Assembly: GCA_937129385.1 (NCBI GenBank)
Contig: CAKZNC010000019.1
Span: 1 to 62,604, forward strand
Length of the DNA: 62,604 nucleotides
Source of the DNA: an uncultured Bacteroidota bacterium
GTDB taxonomy: Bacteria > Bacteroidota > Bacteroidia > Bacteroidales > GCA-2748055
Reading direction: 5' to 3'
The notes beneath the pieces are model-generated. The model saw only the letters and a list, made by a program, of their open reading frames with translations, searched no databases and was not told the DNA's origin. Both the position numbers and the translations under genes were made by a program. Each line of letters begins with the position of its first letter. Position 1 is the first letter of the stretch. Positions 35,875 through 45,149 of the stretch are shown piece by piece.

Positions 35875-36618
35875 ATGCATAAATGGTTTGCAAACATAGG
35901 CAGATATTTCCTGATGCTCAAATCGGTCTTTTCGAAACCGGAACGCATTTCCATATATTACAGGCAGACCATTCGGGAGATTGAAAGTCATGGCATTGGT
36001 TCCATAGGCATTGTAGCTGTGATCTCCGTTTTCGTCGGAGCGGCAATAACCATACAGACCGATTTTAATATTGAGAATCCCTGGTTGCCCAGGTACATCA
36101 TTGGGGTGACTGTTCGGGATTCGCTGCTGCTTGAATTCTCCTCAACGATGGTCGGACTGGTGATCGCAGGTAAAAGCGGTTCTAGTATCGCCTCTGAGAT
36201 CGGCATGATGCGGGTCACCGAACAGATAGATGCACTGGAAGTGATGGGGATCAATGCTGCAGCCTTCCTGGTCCTTCCTAAACTGATCGCATTGGTCATT
36301 TTCCTTCCGATCCTCTGCGCACTCAGTGTTGCCGTAGGTTTGCTTGGCGGATACCTGGTCTGCCTCATTGGCGATGTGATCCCGGTATCGGACTACATTT
36401 ATGGCATCCAGTATGTATTTTACCCCTATTACCTGGCTTATGCAATGTTCAAGGCTGCCTGCTATGGATTCCTGATCACTACCATTGCCAGCTATTTTGG
36501 TTACCATGTAGAGGGAGGAGCCGTGCAGGTTGGCAGATCAAGTACCCGTGCGGTGGTGATCAGCAGCATCCTGATCCTCATGACGGATCTCATACTTACA
36601 AATATCATTTTACATTGA
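35875..36618 (+). CDS. mlaE: MlaE-type ABC transporter permease
   Basis: The permease of an MCE-type phospholipid transporter that maintains outer-membrane lipid asymmetry. It is 247 aa with about five helices. The diagnostic family segment is LVIAGKSGSSIASEIGMMRVTEQIDALEVMGI. Its stop overlaps the mlaF start by 4 bases. No mlaD (MCE) gene follows, though MlaD would be the substrate-binding partner, so it must be elsewhere. A start at Met14 (35914) is possible. Confidence 0.93.
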   Translation: MHKWFANIGRYFLMLKSVFSKPERISIYYRQTIREIESHGIGSIGIVAVISVFVGAAITIQTDFNIENPWLPRYIIGVTVRDSLLLEFSSTMVGLVIAGKSGSSIASEIGMMRVTEQIDALEVMGINAAAFLVLPKLIALVIFLPILCALSVAVGLLGGYLVCLIGDVIPVSDYIYGIQYVFYPYYLAYAMFKAACYGFLITTIASYFGYHVEGGAVQVGRSSTRAVVISSILILMTDLILTNIILH

Positions 36619-37367
36619 TCAGACTGGAGCACATATATAAGAAATTTGATGACAGGTACGTACTGAATGATATTACCGTGAACCTGGAACAGGGAAAGTG
36701 CAACCTCGTTATCGGGGAAAGCGGCTCCGGGAAGACCGTGCTTATGAAATCGGTGGTTGGGCTTGCGGAAGTGGACCAGGGCGAGATCTGGTATGCTGAA
36801 CGGAATTTCACCAGGATGGAAAGACATGAACGACAGGAGCTCAGGAAAGAGATGGGCATGCTCTTTCAGGGTGGAGCCCTGTTCGATTCAATGACCATCG
36901 AGGACAATGTCATGTTTCCCCTGAACATGTTTACCAGGGATACATACAGTTCAAAACTCGACCGCGTCAATTTCTGCCTGGACAGGGTCGGCCTGAAGCA
37001 GGTGAACCGAATGATCCCTGCCGAATTGAGCGGTGGAATGAAAAAACGTGCCGCGATCGCAAGGGCAATCGCCATGTCTCCTGCCTTCCTTTTCTGCGAT
37101 GAACCAAATTCCGGACTTGACCCGAAAACAGCAATAAAAATCGACAATCTCATACATGAAATTACCACTGAATATAATATCACCACCGTTGTGAATTCAC
37201 ATGATATGAATTCTGTGCTTGAGATCGGTGACAGGGTGATCTATATTTATGAGGGATGTAAATGCTGGGAGGGAACGAAAGAAGAGGTGCTACATACCGA
37301 TAATGAAGAACTGAACAATTTTGTTTTTGCAACCAGGATGGCCCAGCAAATAAAAAGAGAGGGATGA
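36615..37367 (+). CDS. mlaF: MlaF-type ABC transporter ATPase
   Basis: The ATPase partner of MlaE, 250 aa. Walker A is GESGSGKT, the Q-loop lies in MLFQGGALFDSMT, the signature is LSGGMKKRAAIARAI, and Walker B is FLFCDEPNSGLDP. GGALFDSM and SGGMKKR are typical of the MlaF/Ttg2A group. It starts with a TTG inside the mlaE stop region and overlaps mobA by 4 bases at the end, so all three are translationally coupled. Confidence 0.94.
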   Translation: MIRLEHIYKKFDDRYVLNDITVNLEQGKCNLVIGESGSGKTVLMKSVVGLAEVDQGEIWYAERNFTRMERHERQELRKEMGMLFQGGALFDSMTIEDNVMFPLNMFTRDTYSSKLDRVNFCLDRVGLKQVNRMIPAELSGGMKKRAAIARAIAMSPAFLFCDEPNSGLDPKTAIKIDNLIHEITTEYNITTVVNSHDMNSVLEIGDRVIYIYEGCKCWEGTKEEVLHTDNEELNNFVFATRMAQQIKREG

Positions 37368-37999
37368 AAAAACCCGGTGAACAACTGCAAGGTCAAACCC
37401 ATGATCCCGTATCTGCAATCATCATCGCAGGAGGAAAAAGCAACAGGATGGGGAAGGATAAAAGGAAGCTCACCCTGGGAGGAAAATCCCTCTTACACAT
37501 CGCAATCGACCTGGCCCGGGAATTTTCGGATGACCTGATCATAAGTGCAAATGACAGGTTTCCCCAATTCAGTGAATGCCGCACCGTACCCGATAAGGTC
37601 AGGGATGAAGGCCCTGTAATGGGGATTGCCTCTTGTCTGCCATATCTCAGGTACACCCATGCCATTATCCTCTCGGGTGATATGCCATTTGTCACCCATG
37701 AAATGATATCACGGTTGCTTGAGAATGAAACTCCCGGGCATGCCTGTTGCTTCCGTTCCAAAGATATTCTCCAACCCTTTCCCGGACTCATGCCTGTATC
37801 TCTTTCAGAAATGATCTGGAAGTACCTTGAATCAGGGGAAAGATCCCTGCATCGGCTCATCGATCAACTACCCGCTACAGTGATCACAACTGGTGAAAAC
37901 CTTCCGGAATACAGTTTTTTAAATATCAACCGGCCAGACGATCTCCGTAAAGCGCGTAATATTTTCCAGTCAGACCATGATATGGAACAGGAATCCTAA
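37364..37999 (+). CDS. mobA: Molybdenum cofactor guanylyltransferase
   Basis: Attaches GMP to molybdopterin to form the guanine dinucleotide cofactor used by DMSO-reductase-family enzymes. The 211-aa protein has the motif IIIAGGKSNRMGKDKRKL at 19-36, then DEGPVMGI, the metal-binding SGDMPFV and a late NINRPDDL. It overlaps mlaF by 4 bases. Just downstream is an operon whose first product needs this cofactor, so the position makes metabolic sense although the intergenic region suggests a separate promoter. Confidence 0.9.
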   Translation: MKKPGEQLQGQTHDPVSAIIIAGGKSNRMGKDKRKLTLGGKSLLHIAIDLAREFSDDLIISANDRFPQFSECRTVPDKVRDEGPVMGIASCLPYLRYTHAIILSGDMPFVTHEMISRLLENETPGHACCFRSKDILQPFPGLMPVSLSEMIWKYLESGERSLHRLIDQLPATVITTGENLPEYSFLNINRPDDLRKARNIFQSDHDMEQES

Positions 38000-38013: not shown

Positions 38014-38141
38014 AAATAGTTCTATTTCATTGTATTACTGATATTTATATAAATGCGACTATCTATACATCCATATATCTACCTATTTAGATGTCTAGAT
38101 GACATCTTTCTTTGTATCTTTACGTTGTTATCATAATAACA
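38014..38141 (+). promoter_or_regulatory. Regulatory region of the sulfur operon with three inverted repeats
   Basis: This 160-base AT-rich gap holds three perfect inverted repeats. AAATAG-tt-CTATTT is at 38014-38027. AGATGTC-N5-GACATCT is at 38089-38107. TGTTAT-cata-ATAACA is at 38126-38141. A near -7 element (TATCTTTA, 38115-38122; one mismatch to TAnnTTTG) lies between the last two. The second palindrome would cover the -33 region and the third the start site, as expected for regulator binding sites. The regulator is not identifiable. Confidence 0.5.
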
Positions 38142-38159: not shown

Positions 38160-40397
38160 ATGGCATCTAGAAGAGACTTTCTCAGGGTCTCTGCTTTTGG
38201 TATAGGCGGCATGTTCGTTGCGGCCGCAGGCTTGAAACTCCAGGCTTCCATTAGTGACCTGAATGAGCGCTCCGATAAACTGTATCTGAATCTCATCAAG
38301 ACTCCCACATATTGCGAAGTATGCTTCTGGAAGTGTGCTGGATGGGTCTACAAAACCGATGAGGGCGAGATCTGGAAAATCGTTGGCAACGAGATCGATC
38401 AGCACTGCAATGGCCGTTTCTGTCCGCGTGGAACAGGGGGAGTGGGGATGTATCATGATGAAGCCCGCCTGAAGACCCCATTGATCAGAACAGGTGAAAG
38501 AGGGGAACAGAAATTCAGAAAGGCATCATGGGAAGAGGCGCTGGATATGGTGGCCAAAAACCTGCAGAACATTGCCGACAAACATGGCCCGGAAACAATC
38601 GCGCTGCTTTCGCATGGGTCAGGGGGTAAGTATTTTACCAACCTGATCAAGGCACTTGGATCAGACAGCTCTGCAGCACCCTCGTTCTCCCAGTGCAAAG
38701 GTCCCAGGGAAATCGCCTTTTTAAATACATTTGGTGAAGAGGTGCTTTCACCGGAAAGAACTGATATCCGTGATACGCGTTGCATGGTACTCATTGGTGC
38801 TCACATCGGTGAGAATATGCATAACGGCCAGGTCCAGGAGATGTCAGATGCCATCGACAAGGGCGCATCGATCATTACCGTAGATCCCCGTTTTTCAGTG
38901 GTTGCCGGAAAATCGAAATTCTGGTTACCTGTCAAACCCGCCACAGACATCGCCCTGCTTCTTGCATGGATTCATGTGATCATTTATGAAAACCAATATG
39001 ATGCCGGGTATGTGGAGAAATACACATACGGTTTTGACTACCTGAAACAGCATGTAAAAAATTTCACCCCTGAGTGGGCCTATGGTATAACGACCATCAA
39101 ACCCGGCACAATACGTGAGACGGCCAGGGAAATGGCCAATGCATCACCTGCTGTGATCATTCATCCCGGGCGACATGTTACCTGGTATGGGGATGACACG
39201 CAAAGATTGCGTGCAGTTGCGATACTCAATGCGCTACTTGGTTCATGGGGAAGACGCGGTGGATTCTATCAGCCCGAATCCATGCCTGTTCCGTCGGCAC
39301 CGCACCCTCCCTATCCAAAACCCCGGAAAACATGGCGGGATGCACTCAATGGTAAATTCAACATGACCGAGCTTCCGCTGGCATCGGAGTTTGTGGAGGC
39401 AAGCCTGCCGGATAGTGACCGGGACCTGCAATACAAGGCATGGATCGTCAACGGTACAAACCTGATCTTTACCCTTCCCGATCAGCAAAAAACGATCGAT
39501 GCACTTAAAAACCTGGAATTTGTTGCAGTGGTGGATACCATGCCCATGGAAATCACTGCCTGGGCCGATGTCATCCTGCCGGAATGTACCTACCTGGAGA
39601 GGTATGACTCCATCAGGAACAGCCCGCATCGTCTCCCTTCCATCGCAGTGCGTATACCTGCTGTTGATCCGAAATATGATACCCGCTCTGCCTGGTGGAT
39701 GGCGAGGGAGATCGGATTACGGATGGGACTTGACGACTATTTTCCCTTCGAGACTCAGGAAGAGGAACTCGACTGGCAATTGAAGGAACTGGGAACTTCC
39801 CTTGAGGAGATGACAAGGAAAGGCGTCAAGAATTTTGAAAGGAGCTGGGACGACCTCTATATTGCTAAGGGTCAGGAGATGGAATTCTTCACAAATACAG
39901 GAAAGATAGAACTCTATTCCACATCAATGGCCGCAGCAGGCTTTGATCCGTTGCCGGTCTATACAAAACACGAACTGCCGCCTGCAGGCTTCTACAGGCT
40001 AAACTACGGTAGGGCTCCGATGCATACATTCAGCCGCACTTCCAATAATCCAAACCTGACCGATCTGATGGCTGAGAATACCCTTTGGGTAAACCCGAAG
40101 ATTTCAAAGATCGAGGGGATTGAGAATGACCAATATGTATGGCTGGAAAATTCAAAAGGTATCATCAGTACATTTCCCATCAAGGTCAGAGTTACCGAAA
40201 GAATTCGCTGGGATTCGGTGTACATGGTGCACGGATTCGGGCATCAGAACAAAATGCTGGAACGATGTTTTGGTAAAGGTGCGAGCGATACAGAGCTGAT
40301 GAGCATCGTTCATAAGGATCCTGTAATGGGAGGTACAGGTATGCGAGGAAATTTTGTACGTATTCACATTGAAAAACCACAGGAGGAATTGTCATGA
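38160..40397 (+). CDS. Molybdopterin oxidoreductase, polysulfide/thiosulfate reductase catalytic subunit (PsrA/PhsA-like)
   Basis: A 745-aa Tat-exported enzyme: twin arginine ASRRDFLRVSAF at 2-13, then a hydrophobic segment. One 4Fe-4S cluster is bound by C52, C55, C59 and C88 (C-x2-C-x3-C, then CPRGTGG). The likely molybdenum ligand is Cys179 in FSQCKGPREIAF, as in the Psr/Phs group. Fold elements such as VIHPGRHVTWYGDD and the C-terminal MVHGFGHQNK are present. It should reduce a sulfur compound (polysulfide, thiosulfate or similar) at the outer face of the membrane, but the substrate cannot be read from sequence. The ATG at 38160 is chosen over a TTG two codons upstream. It overlaps the ferredoxin gene by 4 bases. 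Confidence 0.88.
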   Translation: MASRRDFLRVSAFGIGGMFVAAAGLKLQASISDLNERSDKLYLNLIKTPTYCEVCFWKCAGWVYKTDEGEIWKIVGNEIDQHCNGRFCPRGTGGVGMYHDEARLKTPLIRTGERGEQKFRKASWEEALDMVAKNLQNIADKHGPETIALLSHGSGGKYFTNLIKALGSDSSAAPSFSQCKGPREIAFLNTFGEEVLSPERTDIRDTRCMVLIGAHIGENMHNGQVQEMSDAIDKGASIITVDPRFSVVAGKSKFWLPVKPATDIALLLAWIHVIIYENQYDAGYVEKYTYGFDYLKQHVKNFTPEWAYGITTIKPGTIRETAREMANASPAVIIHPGRHVTWYGDDTQRLRAVAILNALLGSWGRRGGFYQPESMPVPSAPHPPYPKPRKTWRDALNGKFNMTELPLASEFVEASLPDSDRDLQYKAWIVNGTNLIFTLPDQQKTIDALKNLEFVAVVDTMPMEITAWADVILPECTYLERYDSIRNSPHRLPSIAVRIPAVDPKYDTRSAWWMAREIGLRMGLDDYFPFETQEEELDWQLKELGTSLEEMTRKGVKNFERSWDDLYIAKGQEMEFFTNTGKIELYSTSMAAAGFDPLPVYTKHELPPAGFYRLNYGRAPMHTFSRTSNNPNLTDLMAENTLWVNPKISKIEGIENDQYVWLENSKGIISTFPIKVRVTERIRWDSVYMVHGFGHQNKMLERCFGKGASDTELMSIVHKDPVMGGTGMRGNFVRIHIEKPQEELS

Positions 40398-40927
40398 GAT
40401 ATGCCATGGCGATCGACACGAAAAAATGTGTCGGATGCAGCGACTGCGTAGTCGCCTGCCAGACCGAAAATCATGTGCCCATTGGCTATTGCCGTGACTG
40501 GGTTGTTGAAGTGATGGATGGCACCTATCCCCAGCTTGAGATGGAGATCCGTTCGGAGAGGTGTAACCAGTGCGGCAACGCACCATGTGTGCGTTGTTGT
40601 CCCACCGGTGCCAGCCATTTTGAGGAGGGTGGACTCGTCCTGGTAACGGCCGATAAATGTATTGGTTGCGGGGCATGTATACAGTCATGCCCGTATGATG
40701 CAAGGTATTCGCATCCCGACGGACATGTTGACAAATGTACATTCTGTAACCACCGGGTGGAAGTGGGAGGAAAACCTGCCTGTGTTGAAGCCTGCCCGAC
40801 AAAATGCATGTATTTTGGCGACCTGGATGATCCTGGAAGCGATGTGTCTAAAGTGCTGAAAACCCGGAAATCAAAAACCCTCATCCCGGAAGCCGGAACT
40901 GAGCCTTACCTCTACTTTCTAATCTAA
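40394..40927 (+). CDS. Four-cluster ferredoxin subunit (PsrB/PhsB-like)
   Basis: A 177-aa electron-transfer subunit that passes electrons from the membrane subunit to the molybdenum enzyme. There are four cysteine groups for four 4Fe-4S clusters: CVGCSDCVVACQ, CNQCGNAPCVRCCPTGA, CIGCGACIQSCPYDA and CTFCN with CVEACPT. It has no signal peptide of its own, as usual for subunits co-exported with a Tat partner. The start codon overlaps the stop of the catalytic subunit gene (ATGA). Confidence 0.93.
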   Translation: MRYAMAIDTKKCVGCSDCVVACQTENHVPIGYCRDWVVEVMDGTYPQLEMEIRSERCNQCGNAPCVRCCPTGASHFEEGGLVLVTADKCIGCGACIQSCPYDARYSHPDGHVDKCTFCNHRVEVGGKPACVEACPTKCMYFGDLDDPGSDVSKVLKTRKSKTLIPEAGTEPYLYFLI

Positions 40928-40939
40928 AAAACACCCGCA

Positions 40940-41881
40940 ATGAGAGAAGAAATTATCATAAGTGGCCGGATGAATCCAAACATCGATCCGTACCTGCATA
41001 TCTGGCACTGGCAAATACCATTGTACCTCTTCCTGGGAGGTCTTGCTGCCGGAATCCTCTTCTTTTCTGCATACAATCATGTGACCGGAAAGGAAGAAAA
41101 ATACAGGGCTGCATCTTATATCTCCACCTTGATTGTTCCACTGCTCCTGGTATTCGGACTCTTCAGCCTGTTCCTCGACCTGAAACATAAAATGTATTTC
41201 TGGAGATTGTATACCACAATCAAACTGGAATCCCCGATGTCGTGGGGAGCTTGGGTGTTGATGCTGGTAACGCCGCTCTCCTTTATCCTGGCTGCGATCA
41301 ACCTGAAAAAGGTCTTCCCTGGATGGAAATGGAAATACCCGCTTATGCAAACGCTTGATGACTTCTTTGAGAATTACAGGAGGACCATTGCATGGATCCT
41401 GGTGGTCGCAGCACCGATCCTTGGAATATATACCGGTATCCTGTTCTCTGCATTCAACGCACGCCCCCTCTGGAATACTTCTATCCTTGGACCCCTCTTT
41501 CTTGTGTCGGGTTTGTCAACAGGAGCTGCAGTCAATATCCTGTTCTCTAAAGACCATGCAGAAAGACTGGCCTTCACCAGGATCGACCTGGTGCTGATCG
41601 GAATAGAATTGTTCCTGATCACACACATGTTCATGGGGTTCATGGCGAGCACACAGGTGCAGATCGACTCCGCAAAATTATTCCTGGGTGGACCTTATAC
41701 CGCACAATTCTGGGTGCTGGTGGTAATGCTCGGACTTGTGATCCCTGCATTCCTGGAGATCCTGGAACTAAAGAAATTTAAAATTCCGGCAATTGTTCCC
41801 GCCGGCCTGGTCCTGATGGGCGGATTGATCCTCAGGTTTATACTTACAAACGCCGGTCAAATGAGCAGATGGTTGTACTAA
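40940..41881 (+). CDS. NrfD/PsrC-type quinol-oxidising membrane subunit
   Basis: A 313-aa integral membrane protein with about eight helices, matching the NrfD/PsrC family that anchors the reductase and exchanges electrons with menaquinone. Typical segments are WQIPLYLFLGGLAAGILFFS in helix 1 and SPMSWGAWVLMLVTPLSF. A further one is ILGIYTGILFSAFNARPLWNTS without interruption in the fold. It completes a three-subunit Psr-type complex. The next gene follows after 13 bases. Confidence 0.9.
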   Translation: MREEIIISGRMNPNIDPYLHIWHWQIPLYLFLGGLAAGILFFSAYNHVTGKEEKYRAASYISTLIVPLLLVFGLFSLFLDLKHKMYFWRLYTTIKLESPMSWGAWVLMLVTPLSFILAAINLKKVFPGWKWKYPLMQTLDDFFENYRRTIAWILVVAAPILGIYTGILFSAFNARPLWNTSILGPLFLVSGLSTGAAVNILFSKDHAERLAFTRIDLVLIGIELFLITHMFMGFMASTQVQIDSAKLFLGGPYTAQFWVLVVMLGLVIPAFLEILELKKFKIPAIVPAGLVLMGGLILRFILTNAGQMSRWLY

Positions 41882-41894
41882 AAAAATAATTGAT

Positions 41895-42434
41895 ATGTCA
41901 GAACAATCCATTCCTGAATTCAGGAAAACAAGTTACTTCAATCCCTACGTTGGCGGCGTCCTGCTTGGACTGGTGCTGCTGGCGGCCTTCTATATCTCCG
42001 GACGGGGACTTGGCGCAAGTGGGGCAGTGAAAAGTGCAGTTGTGGCTGGTGTGGAAACCATTGCACCGTCGCATGCCGAAAATACTAAATTCTATAGTGA
42101 TTATGCCGACGCGCATCCAAACGGACCCCTGAAATCATGGCTGGTATTCGAGATGCTGGGCGTTCTCATCGGTGGTTTTATCTCCGGAGCAATACATGGA
42201 AGACTGAAACTCCAGGTGGAGCATTCTCCAAAGATCACGTCCCGGAAAAGACTCATATTTGCCCTTGCCGGCGGGATCCTGTTTGGAATTGGATCCCAGC
42301 TGGGCAGAGGATGTACAAGTGGCTCTGCACTTTCGGGCATGGCAGTACTCAGTATGGGTGGATTCATATCGATGATCTTCATCTTCGGTACCGCCTATGC
42401 CCTGGCATATTTTGTAAGAAAATTATGGATTTAA
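41895..42434 (+). CDS. Half-size YeeE/YedE family sulfur transporter, first subunit
   Basis: A 179-aa membrane protein with about four helices. The family signature is near the C-terminus: GSQLGRGCTSGSALSGMAVL, with the conserved cysteine. YeeE/TsuA proteins import thiosulfate through persulfide-type contacts at such cysteines. Full-length family members have two similar halves. Here the halves are separate genes, as in PmpA/PmpB-type pairs. The first half has an extended N-terminal helix and a periplasmic loop (VETIAPSHAENTKFYSDYAD). It is expected to pair with the next gene product. Confidence 0.85.
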   Translation: MSEQSIPEFRKTSYFNPYVGGVLLGLVLLAAFYISGRGLGASGAVKSAVVAGVETIAPSHAENTKFYSDYADAHPNGPLKSWLVFEMLGVLIGGFISGAIHGRLKLQVEHSPKITSRKRLIFALAGGILFGIGSQLGRGCTSGSALSGMAVLSMGGFISMIFIFGTAYALAYFVRKLWI

Positions 42435-42447
42435 AAAGAACTGAAAA

Positions 42448-43044
42448 ATGGGACCACTAATAGTATATGAGAATATTACACAGAATACGAATCTGTTCTT
42501 TGCTTTCCTGATCGGAATCGGTTTCGGTTTCGTATTGGAGGCCAGCGGCTTCTCATCCAGCAGAAAACTCGCAGGACAGTTTTACGGGTATGATACCACG
42601 GTGATCAAGGTGTTCTTTACCGCTGCAATTACTGCAGGGATCGGTCTGCTTATATTCGGTCTGTTTGGCTGGATCGACCTGGACCTTATCTACATCAACC
42701 CGTACTATAAATGGTCCACCATCGTCGGTGGAATGATCATGGGTGCCGGCTTCATCCTGGGGGGATTCTGCCCCGGGACAAGCTTTACAGGCGTCGCAAT
42801 TGGTAAGATCGATGCAATGATTTTTGTTGGAGGACTTCTACTTGGTATCCTCATTTTTACTGAAGGATATCCCATCTTTGAAGGACTCTATATGGCTGCA
42901 TATAAAGGAACTCCAAGAGTAAGCTCCATGATGGGCATTTCAGACGGACTCTTTCTGCTTGGCCTCGTAATCGTTGCCTTTGGCATGTTTTATGTTGCAG
43001 AATGGGCGGAGAAAAAATTTCCATTGAAAGAAGGATCAAAATAA
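42448..43044 (+). CDS. Half-size YeeE/YedE family sulfur transporter, second subunit
   Basis: A 198-aa membrane protein with five or six hydrophobic segments. The family signature is FILGGFCPGTSFTGVAIGKI, whose Cys corresponds to the transport cysteine of the other half. An upstream segment, GFGFVLEASGFSSSRKLAGQ, also matches the family. It starts 13 bases after its partner gene and is followed by the rhodanese-fold gene after 11 bases. The likely cargo is thiosulfate or another sulfur anion; direction of transport is not evident. Confidence 0.85.
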   Translation: MGPLIVYENITQNTNLFFAFLIGIGFGFVLEASGFSSSRKLAGQFYGYDTTVIKVFFTAAITAGIGLLIFGLFGWIDLDLIYINPYYKWSTIVGGMIMGAGFILGGFCPGTSFTGVAIGKIDAMIFVGGLLLGILIFTEGYPIFEGLYMAAYKGTPRVSSMMGISDGLFLLGLVIVAFGMFYVAEWAEKKFPLKEGSK

Positions 43045-43055
43045 AACTCAACACA

Positions 43056-43700
43056 ATGAAAAACGTAAAGATCAAAAGTACAAGGGTATTGCTTGCCGTT
43101 ATCTATATCCCGGTTGCATTTGTCCTTGCTTTCGCACCGGTGAAAACCAACAAACCCAATGCGCTCTCTTCTGAAGAGTTGCTTGAAGAGGTGAACAGCA
43201 GCGTCCAGTTCATCAGTCCTGACGATGTGGCTGACAGAATCATCAAGCAGGATCCGTTTCTTCAGCTGATCGATGTGCGGACCCCGGAAGAGTTTGAGAA
43301 ATTCAGCCTTCCCGGTGCGATCAATATTCCTCTTGCCCAACTGCTTTCCGATGAATATGCCTATATCCTCAATCAGTCGGATTACATCAATGTCTACTAT
43401 TCAAACGGTACTGTCTTTGCCTCCCAGGCATGGTTGCTTACACGGATGAAAGGATATGAGAACAATTATGTGCTGATGGGCGGACTCAATTACTGGGCCG
43501 AGACGATCATGAATCCGGAAGCGCCTTCCTCAACCAGCCCTAACGAAGAAGTTGCGAAATATAATTTCAGGAAGGGAGCCAGCCAGGTTCTCGGCGGTGG
43601 TGCGACTGAAAATGATTCAGCTGCGACAAGCATCCTTGCAGCACCAAAACCGCCTATCAAGAAAAACACCCAGAGAAAAAGGGTACAGGGAGGTTGCTGA
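43056..43700 (+). CDS. Exported rhodanese-fold protein without catalytic Cys, sole Cys in a C-terminal Gly-Gly-Cys tail
   Basis: A 214-aa protein with an N-terminal hydrophobic segment at about 9-28 (a signal peptide or anchor), then a rhodanese domain: LIDVRTPEEFEKFSLPGAINIPL. The active-site loop, normally Y-C-x-x-G, reads NVYYSNGTVFAS, so Tyr replaces the catalytic cysteine. The protein has only one cysteine and it is the last residue, after a long Pro/Lys/Arg-rich tail ending RKRVQGGC. I infer a flexible sulfur-carrying arm comparable to the GGCGG tail of SoxY. I start at the ATG at 43056, since the upstream frame overlaps the preceding gene and masks the signal. It is last gene of the operon. 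Confidence 0.87.
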   Translation: MKNVKIKSTRVLLAVIYIPVAFVLAFAPVKTNKPNALSSEELLEEVNSSVQFISPDDVADRIIKQDPFLQLIDVRTPEEFEKFSLPGAINIPLAQLLSDEYAYILNQSDYINVYYSNGTVFASQAWLLTRMKGYENNYVLMGGLNYWAETIMNPEAPSSTSPNEEVAKYNFRKGASQVLGGGATENDSAATSILAAPKPPIKKNTQRKRVQGGC

Positions 43701-43703
43701 TAC

Positions 43704-45149
43704 TTAAAGAATCAGGGGCCGGTCCACAGGGCCGGCCTTTTTTCCTGCCCGCTGCCATCCAAACGCAAGGTTCATTCCAAACCACAGATTGACCGATCGT
43801 GTATCCAGCGGGTTCAATGCTCCGCTGACAATATTATCAGAGATCAGGTAGAGATTCAATGGTCCTACATTGAATGAAAGTCCCGCCCCGATATTATTGA
43901 AGGTGTTGCTCATATAGGAGTAACTCAATGACAGGTTGATGAATTTTCCGGTCGTCATATTTACCGAGCCTGTGAATTGCTGGGAAATATTCTCGCCCAG
44001 GAAATCTGTCCTTGAGAGAAGCCCCAGCCCGATCTTCTCAATAGGGTAATAAGATACACCAACAAATAGTTTGGTATTCAGTTTTGAAAAATAGGGCGTT
44101 CCCGTAACGAAGGAGATTGAATTGATCAGGGAATCCGTCAATTCAGAAACAAAAGTGGTGTCAACGCCTGTAAAGGGATTGACCTCGATTCCCCTGAATT
44201 CATATTGAAAATCAAAATTGCCTTCCATGGTGTTCTTCCACCGGATCCCCCCAATATCCATGACTGAAGCGCTCACCAGCAATTGAGGCAGGATCCTGTA
44301 TGACGCACCTATATCCAGGGCAAGACCCGCCTGGTCAGGATTGAGAAATGTCCTGACAATCTCACCAGGTGATGCATTATCGATGAAGGTAGAATCAATG
44401 GTGAATGGATCCTCATTCTCAATGTCGCTGTTAAAAGTAACTACAGATTGCGGGGCTGCAACACTCATCTGCATACTGGAATTTACATTCCAGGCCTCCA
44501 TGGAGGTGGAAATATCAAATACCGAATTTCGCGTCGCAACATTGGCAATCCCGAACAGTAACTTTCCCCTGATTCCTACATCCAGTCCGGGCAAAAGAAA
44601 ATCCTTTCTTGAATAGCCCATTGAAAATTCATTGAACACATTCACATCCACTCCGATTCCACTGAGTGAGATTGTCGAACCGTCAGGAGCACCATCAAAC
44701 ATTACATCAAAAATTCCCCTTGGATAAGAGATATTTCCATCCACCCTTGTGGTAATATCAAAAGAAAAGAAACTCTTTCCAGACCTGAACCCAAAGGATG
44801 CCAGGGAGGTCCCAAGACTTGACAACATGTAGTTGGTCTCCTTGAGATTCTTTAAAAATGCATCCTTGTCTGCCAGTGGATGAAAGGGGGTCACCAGCGA
44901 ATCAATCTCCTGGTTATAGGTAATTACATCGTTAAAACCAAGTGAACTTGAACTTACCTGGAACCTGAGCGGTGCTACACCGGGCATCCCGATGTAAAAA
45001 CCCCAACCCGGCTGGATCGAAGGGTTAATGCGGTTCGACTGTGGCACCCCGGGCATGAAATACAATGAATTTGGGATCTGACCTGCCACGCCAACACCCA
45101 GTATGGTAAATAATAAACCGCTAATGATAGATCTCCTGAAACTTTTCAT
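43704..45149 (-). CDS. DUF5723-like outer-membrane beta-barrel protein
   Basis: A 481-aa exported protein. The signal peptide ends LGVGVAGQ. It continues IPNSLYFMPGVPQSNRINPS, a typical opening for the Bacteroidota DUF5723 family, which resembles PorP-like and FadL-like barrels. Alternating strands run to the C-terminus (FWGMNLAFGWQRAG-type ending seen as LWFGMNLAFGWQRA). The function is unknown. It is third in a leftward unit after a lipoprotein and a large anchored protein; the spacing to the lipoprotein gene is 24 bases. Its 3' end contains the terminator of the convergent sulfur operon. Confidence 0.75.
   Translation of the reverse strand: MKSFRRSIISGLLFTILGVGVAGQIPNSLYFMPGVPQSNRINPSIQPGWGFYIGMPGVAPLRFQVSSSSLGFNDVITYNQEIDSLVTPFHPLADKDAFLKNLKETNYMLSSLGTSLASFGFRSGKSFFSFDITTRVDGNISYPRGIFDVMFDGAPDGSTISLSGIGVDVNVFNEFSMGYSRKDFLLPGLDVGIRGKLLFGIANVATRNSVFDISTSMEAWNVNSSMQMSVAAPQSVVTFNSDIENEDPFTIDSTFIDNASPGEIVRTFLNPDQAGLALDIGASYRILPQLLVSASVMDIGGIRWKNTMEGNFDFQYEFRGIEVNPFTGVDTTFVSELTDSLINSISFVTGTPYFSKLNTKLFVGVSYYPIEKIGLGLLSRTDFLGENISQQFTGSVNMTTGKFINLSLSYSYMSNTFNNIGAGLSFNVGPLNLYLISDNIVSGALNPLDTRSVNLWFGMNLAFGWQRAGKKAGPVDRPLIL
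43717..43743 (+). terminator. Intrinsic terminator of the sulfur operon, inside the 3' end of the opposite gene
   Basis: GGCCGG (43717-43722), a 9-base loop, CCGGCC (43732-43737) and six T. It lies within the last codons of the convergent DUF5723 gene, whose stop codon is at 43704. Confidence 0.85.

Follow-up and report, generated by a model that had tools for sequence, protein, structure and literature searches.

The six-gene cassette and its molybdoenzyme

The window analysed here is a stretch of 62,604 nucleotides, contig CAKZNC010000019.1, from an uncultured Bacteroidota bacterium of the order Bacteroidales, and our subject is an operon of six open reading frames (ORFs) within it. These ORFs lie on the same (+) strand and fill positions 38160-43700 in the order psrA-psrB-psrC-yeeC-yeeN-rho, with junctions of -4, 12, 13, 13 and 11 bp (Table 1). 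The first three encode a reductase-like complex and the next two a split YeeE transporter, whose C-terminal half is encoded ahead of its N-terminal half, and the last encodes a membrane-anchored rhodanese-fold protein. An earlier note, made from the DNA letters alone, had described a six-gene sulfur operon without gaps above 15 bases and with a terminator closing the unit. Both statements hold, the largest gap being 13 bp and a hairpin with a T run being present at 43714-43743. The hairpin begins about 14 bp past the rho stop codon; the gene next after rho is convergent and ends at 43704, and the terminator is assigned to this convergent junction.

Table 1. Features of the psrABC-yeeCN-rho locus and its upstream flank (positions in the window)
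Feature	Description	Position	Strand	Evidence and remarks
psrA	Catalytic subunit with molybdenum bis(pyranopterin guanine dinucleotide) (Mo-bisPGD), periplasmic, Psr/Phs type	38160-40397	+	745 aa; Molybdopterin 3e-45 (Pfam)
psrB	Ferredoxin-like electron-transfer subunit	40394-40927	+	177 aa; Fer4_11 3e-22 (Pfam); 4 bp overlap with psrA
psrC	NrfD-type quinone-interacting membrane subunit	40940-41881	+	313 aa; NrfD 2e-43 (Pfam); 12 bp gap
yeeC	Half-YeeE transporter, C-terminal half, PmpA-like	41895-42434	+	179 aa; Sulf_transp 1.5e-22, profile 174-309; 13 bp gap
yeeN	Half-YeeE transporter, N-terminal half, PmpB-like	42448-43044	+	198 aa; Sulf_transp 1e-12, profile 8-157; 13 bp gap
rho	Membrane-anchored rhodanese-fold protein, tail ends GGC	43056-43700	+	214 aa; Rhodanese 3e-14 (Pfam); 11 bp gap
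rho arm	Disordered C-terminal arm, residues 181-214, Gly-Gly-Cys end	43596-43697	+	Predicted local distance difference test (pLDDT); homologue comparison
Terminator	Intrinsic terminator: GC-rich hairpin and T run	43714-43743	+	Sequence; RNA fold -22.1 kcal/mol over 43701-43760
Palindrome	Operator-like ATCTA-N6-TAGAT, upstream of psrA	38078-38093	none	Enrichment among psrA relatives
mobA	Molybdenum cofactor guanylyltransferase-like, outside the six	37364-37999	+	PF12804 5e-28; TIGR02665 3e-30, under cut-off

The best PDB match of PsrA is the PsrA of Thermus thermophilus (2vpw_A, E 5e-192). The protein begins with a twin-arginine translocation (Tat) signal bearing the RR motif (SRRDFLRVSAFG), followed by an invariant [4Fe-4S] set (C52-C55-C59-C88), and its C179 and R338 align with Thermus Cys173, the molybdenum ligand, and Arg332, both residues being invariant in 20 homologues. 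The psrB translation contains 16 ligand cysteines arranged as four [4Fe-4S] motifs, and PsrC, with eight transmembrane (TM) helices predicted from hydropathy, matches Thermus PsrC (2vpw_C) weakly. Tat signal, iron-sulfur cysteine set, molybdenum-ligand cysteine, four-cluster PsrB and adjoining eight-helix NrfD subunit together identify a complex iron-sulfur molybdoenzyme. Against the PhsA model NF012032, which describes the Salmonella-type thiosulfate reductase, PsrA scores 460 bits, under the cut-off of 694, and Psr, Phs and Sre enzymes are not separable by sequence, from which neither substrate nor direction can be read (PMC8359478). We therefore describe PsrA as Psr/Phs-type and assign it no substrate. 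A second molybdoenzyme is encoded elsewhere in the host genome (contig C187, locus L002), an A subunit of the DMSO/selenate reductase family that scores above its cut-off.

The half-YeeE pair comprises two Sulf_transp halves with a conserved cysteine in each, as is characteristic of YeeE/PmpAB transporters. The yeeC protein aligns with TsuA (6leo) and its Cys140 (GRGCTSG) is invariant in 26 aligned rows; Cys108 of YeeN (GG(F/Y)CPGTS) is invariant in 30. YeeE Cys108 and Cys140 correspond to Cys91 and Cys293, which are essential in TsuA (PMC11582611). YeeC and YeeN correspond to PmpA and PmpB, respectively. Against the TsuA model itself the half-YeeE score is 47.5 bits, under the cut-off of 400. 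A search for TusA-family proteins found none in the host genome, which is 99.7% complete, whereas 11 of 14 genomes searched as a control have one; the host thus lacks the cytoplasmic partner known for YeeE. No other Sulf_transp protein was found in the host genome either. Canonical uptake by YeeE-YeeD (TsuA-TsuB) is rejected because the genome lacks TusA. The locus likewise differs from the YTD sulfur-disproportionation cluster, which consists of yeeE, tusA, a dsrE-like gene and two conserved hypotheticals: TusA is absent and the neighbours of YeeE are psrABC and rho.

The rhodanese-fold protein and its Gly-Gly-Cys tail

The earlier note had called the product of the last gene a carrier-like, rhodanese-fold protein ending in GGC. 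The fold and the tail are confirmed: AlphaFold, run with 54 family members, predicts a TM helix at residues 9-26, a core with pLDDT 92-98 and a tail at 181-214 with pLDDT of about 50-66, and the Foldseek matches of this model are rhodaneses. What we add is the loss of the catalytic cysteine. A profile alignment to solved rhodaneses places Ser at the catalytic position of the window protein, so that its only cysteine is the last residue, Cys214. This pattern extends over the 148 cassettes in which tail and catalytic column were counted. The column holds something other than Cys in 145 of them (Ser 110, Gly 17, Ala 17, Thr 1, Cys 3); 147 proteins have Gly-Cys at the very end or one residue short of it, the exception (L189) being cut by a contig end; and the terminal cysteine is the sole cysteine in 105. 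Judged by its sequence, rho is a pseudo-enzyme, a rhodanese fold without its usual catalytic cysteine and with a cysteine at the tip of a tail. It lacks the active-site-loop cysteine of the rhodanese sulfurtransferases, Sud included, and a role as an ordinary sulfurtransferase is rejected on account of this loss. None of the five other rhodanese proteins of the host genome has a GGC tail.

Four basic residues precede the rho anchor, and in fused YeeN-rho proteins a K/R-rich loop and then a sixth helix follow the YeeE half. By the positive-inside rule and the topology of these fusions, as read from hydropathy alone, the rho domain should be periplasmic.

A different function for the terminal cysteine has to be weighed at this point. 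It may be structural, acting as a disulfide tether, a lipid or cofactor attachment or a metal ligand, and the pseudo-rhodanese would then be an assembly or anchoring subunit. Catalytically dead homologues commonly act as scaffolds, and the tail is basic (KKKKxGC) and resembles membrane- or protein-binding tails. However, the cysteine stands on a tail that is disordered in the AlphaFold model, with Gly before it as in SoxY, and GGC tails are also found on two-domain rhodaneses that retain an apparent catalytic cysteine (L130, L132, L147, L149, L150, L152), which leads us to consider a purely structural role very improbable.

Further rhodaneses occur around these genes. Many genomes (L128-L152 and others) carry a tandem second pseudo-rhodanese with a GGC tail after the first, and some loci add a two-domain rhodanese of 340-390 aa with an apparent catalytic cysteine, several of which, in the six loci just listed, end in GGC. 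In the host itself, contig C110 (16164-22909) encodes a three-domain rhodanese a few kb from a heme-copper oxidase subunit gene.

Conservation of the cassette and a second enzyme partner

We followed the cassette in two sets of sequences, the first being 248 Bacteroidota genomes spread over the phylum, in which PsrA was called at E <1e-60, and the second the 80 closest PsrA loci from a GTDB scan, which share 62-69% identity and come from Bacteroidales, Cytophagales and Candidatus Neomarinimicrobiota. PsrA is present in 29 of the 248 genomes, at 47% identity or more in 20 and at 42-43% in nine, the latter belonging to one other family. All 20 of the closer PsrA are accompanied by the full cassette, on one contig in 19 cases and, in the remaining genome (G011), with psrA on one contig and the rest on another, both near contig ends. 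The neighbourhood comparison across Bacteroidota that the earlier note had proposed thus finds the co-occurrence of the six families fixed among close PsrA relatives, and its statement that Psr/Phs complexes normally stand without dedicated transporters fails for this clade. Within the 42-43% family, the two loci examined lack the cassette, L104 over 5.5 kb downstream and L103 up to a cut about 0.4 kb past psrC.

In the second set, the exact order psrA-psrB-psrC-yeeC-yeeN-rho recurs in 63 of the 80 loci; of the other 17, 15 reach a contig end no more than 176 bp after the last gene found, and in two the cassette is complete apart from an ORF that is split or duplicated. There is no true exception among the 80. 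An arrangement that recurs in this way, with only contig ends and split or duplicated ORFs departing from it, is far beyond chance, and a fortuitous neighbourhood of unrelated sulfur genes, which would have to keep a fixed order across classes and into a second phylum, can be given practically no weight and is rejected.

A rho homologue (E <1e-10) was found in 79 of 198 genomes of the window's own order. Searching a plasmid collection brought up one partial rhodanese match and nothing related to PsrA at E <1e-100. In L118, from the window's family, psrA, psrB, psrC and yeeN each lie in two frames, which may reflect sequencing errors or a decaying operon. The PsrA loci L181 and L156 sit in contigs of metagenome-assembled genomes (MAGs) that bear the titles Thalassobius and Chitinophaga pinensis; these contigs may have been mis-binned or mislabelled.

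The last three genes also occur in a second architecture, in which yeeC and a usually fused yeeN-rho stand behind an octaheme protein and a cytochrome b561. The octaheme protein has eight CXXCH motifs, scores far above the cut-off of TIGR04315 and matches PDB 1sp3 at E 4.5e-121. This arrangement is present at 23 loci and once more in L156, making 24, and most of them carry the yeeN-rho fusion. In L156 (4577-13430) an octaheme cassette is directly followed on the same strand by a PSR cassette; both have half-YeeE genes of their own, and the PSR cassette leaves the contig after yeeC. When a tree is built from the two YeeE halves, the octaheme cassettes group as a single clade within the PSR cassettes, with a clade support of only 0.54, and the partner changes needed number five, against 29 for shuffled labels. 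Octaheme genes are also present without the module at some loci, and no octaheme tetrathionate reductase was found in the window's genome. A few loci have the module with neither enzyme. Four of these (L058, L059, L061, L070) end in MGC instead of GGC and lie beside a two-domain sulfurtransferase with an apparent catalytic cysteine; among the others, L115 is truncated by its contig, L120 seems to carry an internal deletion, and L137 and L151 are unexplained.

Because the same YeeE/GGC set stands behind an octaheme enzyme and, in a few loci, behind neither enzyme, the last three genes are a portable module and not a fixed part of Psr. The earlier note had taken a separation of the last three genes from the first three in most relatives as a sign against a functional unit. 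Every close PsrABC does have them, but they also occur without PsrABC. We regard this portability as strengthening the idea that sulfur is handed over by the carrier. Linkage of two unrelated quinone-linked enzymes to one kind of transporter and one kind of GGC protein implies that all of them hand on the same sulfur species.

The module may alternatively be an assimilation importer. The enzyme would then merely free thiosulfate or sulfide into the periplasm, and the GGC protein would serve as the extracytoplasmic receptor of the transporter, having no direct contact with the enzyme. The four loci in which the module lies beside a sulfurtransferase but no redox enzyme would fit such a role, as would the YeeN-rho fusions, which bind rho to the transporter and not to the enzyme, and YeeE family members do import thiosulfate (PMC11582611). 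Nevertheless, PsrABC is linked to the module very strictly, and a second enzyme is linked to it as well, which argues for a shared substrate; we consider a free-standing importer unlikely.

Upstream of the operon, the mobA-like gene sits 160 bp 5' of psrA, and mobA is found near 31 of the 80 psrA loci. Its position fits PsrA being a bis(molybdopterin guanine dinucleotide) enzyme, and its product probably supplies the PsrA cofactor. MlaE/MlaF-like lipid transport genes lie directly upstream of mobA (35875-37999), with 4 bp overlaps among the three. The palindrome ATCTA-N6-TAGAT occurs exactly in eight of 133 psrA upstream regions, where shuffles predict 0.5, and its gap is 6 in 33 of the 36 best sites; many relatives share it, and it is probably an operator for some regulator. 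A sigma-70 promoter scan returned sites no commoner than in shuffles, and no full match to a Bacteroidota-type -33/-7 promoter was found upstream. Many relatives of the locus (L036-L056, 14 loci; L178, L200 and L202), though not the window itself, have a MerR-family regulator ahead of the operon or close to it; this protein is Cys-rich at its C-terminus and is a candidate sulfur sensor.

A proposed sulfur-carrying arm and its known counterparts

The fixed co-occurrence, the YeeE-rhodanese fusions and the conserved GGC tail strongly support a functional coupling of reductase, transporter and carrier. This bears out one part of the earlier note, which had sulfur handed via the carrier to or from the transporter, in the direction of either respiration or assimilation. 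The shared module, a SoxY-like cysteine after Gly on a flexible arm and a YeeE without its known cytoplasmic partner lead us to propose a sulfur-carrying arm. Our hypothesis, to which we give an even chance, is that the operon forms a periplasm-facing sulfane-sulfur station, made up of PsrABC, a YeeE pore and the rho carrier arm and working reductively. PsrABC would sit on the periplasmic side of the cytoplasmic membrane as a quinone-linked molybdoenzyme, and the two half-YeeE proteins would assemble into a PmpAB-like pore to which each contributes one relay cysteine. Rho would contribute one TM anchor, a non-catalysing rhodanese fold and a disordered basic tail of about 34 residues ending in Gly-Gly-Cys, the terminal cysteine of which could carry sulfur as a persulfide or S-thiosulfonate. 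This tail might swing between the active-site funnel of PsrA and the mouth of the YeeE pore, much like the GGCGG arm of SoxY in the Sox system. Quinol electrons would pass through PsrC to PsrB, carrier-bound sulfane sulfur would be reduced to sulfide at PsrA, and YeeE would exchange sulfane sulfur or thiosulfate with the cytoplasm. What the rho tail carries and where it docks are inferred, as are the periplasmic placing of rho and the reductive direction; gene content, order and conservation, the lost catalytic cysteine, the kept tail cysteine, the exchange of enzyme partner and the absence of TusA are observed, and the layout of anchor, fold and tail is predicted.

Reduction is the direction we modestly favour: the enzyme that replaces PsrABC in the second architecture is known as a tetrathionate reductase, and there are known cases of Psr with a rhodanese-family donor. 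Several points weigh against the hypothesis. The direction of Psr/Phs enzymes is not readable from sequence (PMC8359478), and the proposal draws on sequence and structural models. The host encodes two heme-copper oxidases, which make oxidation possible. The terminal cysteine of rho could serve another role. Finally, the module is found at loci without a redox enzyme (L058, L059, L061, L070, L137, L151), and redox coupling is thus not essential to it.

The same arm could also run in reverse. PsrABC would then oxidise sulfide or reduced carrier sulfur to a persulfide on the GGC cysteine and pass the electrons to menaquinone, and YeeE would import the sulfane sulfur for assimilation or detoxification. 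The two oxidases of the host would suit this direction, sulfide oxidation by menaquinone is thermodynamically favourable, and the operon is carried by Fulvivirga and Marinoscillum (Cytophagales), which are aerobes. Psr has also been proposed to act as an oxidase in Marinimicrobia (PMC5688066). On the other hand, tetrathionate reduction is the known activity of the module's octaheme partner, and its reverse is not expected with menaquinone; where a rhodanese-family donor is known to support Psr, the reaction is a reduction. Oxidation is a possibility that we hold at distinctly less than even.

In low-oxygen waters, Bacteroidota and Marinimicrobia commonly carry Psr-like gene sets, and the literature treats the substrate and direction of these enzymes as an open question (PMC8359478). 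If real, a carrier and a transporter dedicated to such enzymes would explain how poorly soluble or reactive sulfur is handled without release, and a module common to two unrelated enzymes offers an independent route to their shared substrate. The C-terminal cysteine of rho is the single residue on which the whole model can be tested. Since domain searches present these proteins as ordinary rhodaneses, the GGC tail together with the half-YeeE pair is a useful annotation marker. The tethered pseudo-rhodanese suggests a sulfur-carrying arm of a new kind that serves two unrelated respiratory enzymes. Put more generally, and with about equal odds for and against, tethered pseudo-rhodaneses may constitute a previously undescribed class of sulfur carrier, in which the reactive cysteine no longer sits in the active-site loop but at the tip of a flexible C-terminal GGC arm. 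With a split YeeE pore they would form a portable docking module, through which protein-bound sulfur is channelled between the cytoplasm and the quinone-linked periplasmic enzyme that happens to be the partner, be it a molybdoenzyme or an octaheme cytochrome.

The six-gene neighbourhood is not new in itself, having been described once before: a hot-spring MAG, 'Candidatus Thermonerobacter thiotrophicus', carries MerR-psrABC-DUF395(x2)-rhodanese, the same six families in the same order, and a sulfur function was suggested (Thiel et al. 2019, PMC6338057). As far as that account was available to us in part, it deals with neighbouring genes in one MAG lineage and takes the rhodanese as an ordinary sulfurtransferase, and no mention was found in that portion of the lost catalytic cysteine, the GGC tail, the phylum-wide fixation or the octaheme variant. 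Nor did the searched literature, from which subscription journals are largely absent, yield an account of the lost cysteine, the tail or the change of partner from one enzyme to another. Within the reach of this search, a pseudo-rhodanese with a relocated cysteine and an exchangeable enzyme partner is new.

Rhodaneses are known from other Psr systems. Psr of Wolinella succinogenes is served by the Sud rhodanese, and Caldithrix has a Psr operon with a rhodanese nearby. The Psr operon of Desulfurivibrio includes a secreted three-domain rhodanese (PMC12142623). The likeness of the Wolinella and Desulfurivibrio systems to ours is that a periplasmic rhodanese-family protein serves PsrABC. Their rhodaneses use the cysteine of the active-site loop, whereas rho lacks this residue, has its sole cysteine at the C-terminus, is anchored in the membrane and is linked to a YeeE transporter.

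The transporter resembles PmpAB, SoxT and TsuA-TsuB in that the half-YeeE pair spans the N- and C-terminal halves, each with a conserved cysteine (PMC11582611; also PMC13047784). It differs from them in its partner, since TsuB/TusA is cytoplasmic and rho appears to be extracytoplasmic. Otr (PDB 1sp3) represents the family of the partner enzyme in the second architecture; the window's genome has no copy, and its relevance is that it shows the module to be attachable to another enzyme.

A functional parallel for the arm is SoxYZ. SoxY bears its cysteine on a flexible C-terminal periplasmic GGCGG arm (PMC6067878), and soxYZ has been seen beside otr (PMC11237559). Like rho as we picture it, this is a periplasmic carrier with a cysteine after Gly-Gly on a flexible C-terminal arm, encoded near sulfur redox enzymes that include an octaheme cytochrome. 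Rho does not have the GGCGG motif on a SoxY fold with SoxZ that defines SoxY, and the two folds are unrelated; rho is a membrane-tethered rhodanese fold, often fused to the transporter, in a cassette without SoxZ. The resemblance is thus one of working principle only.

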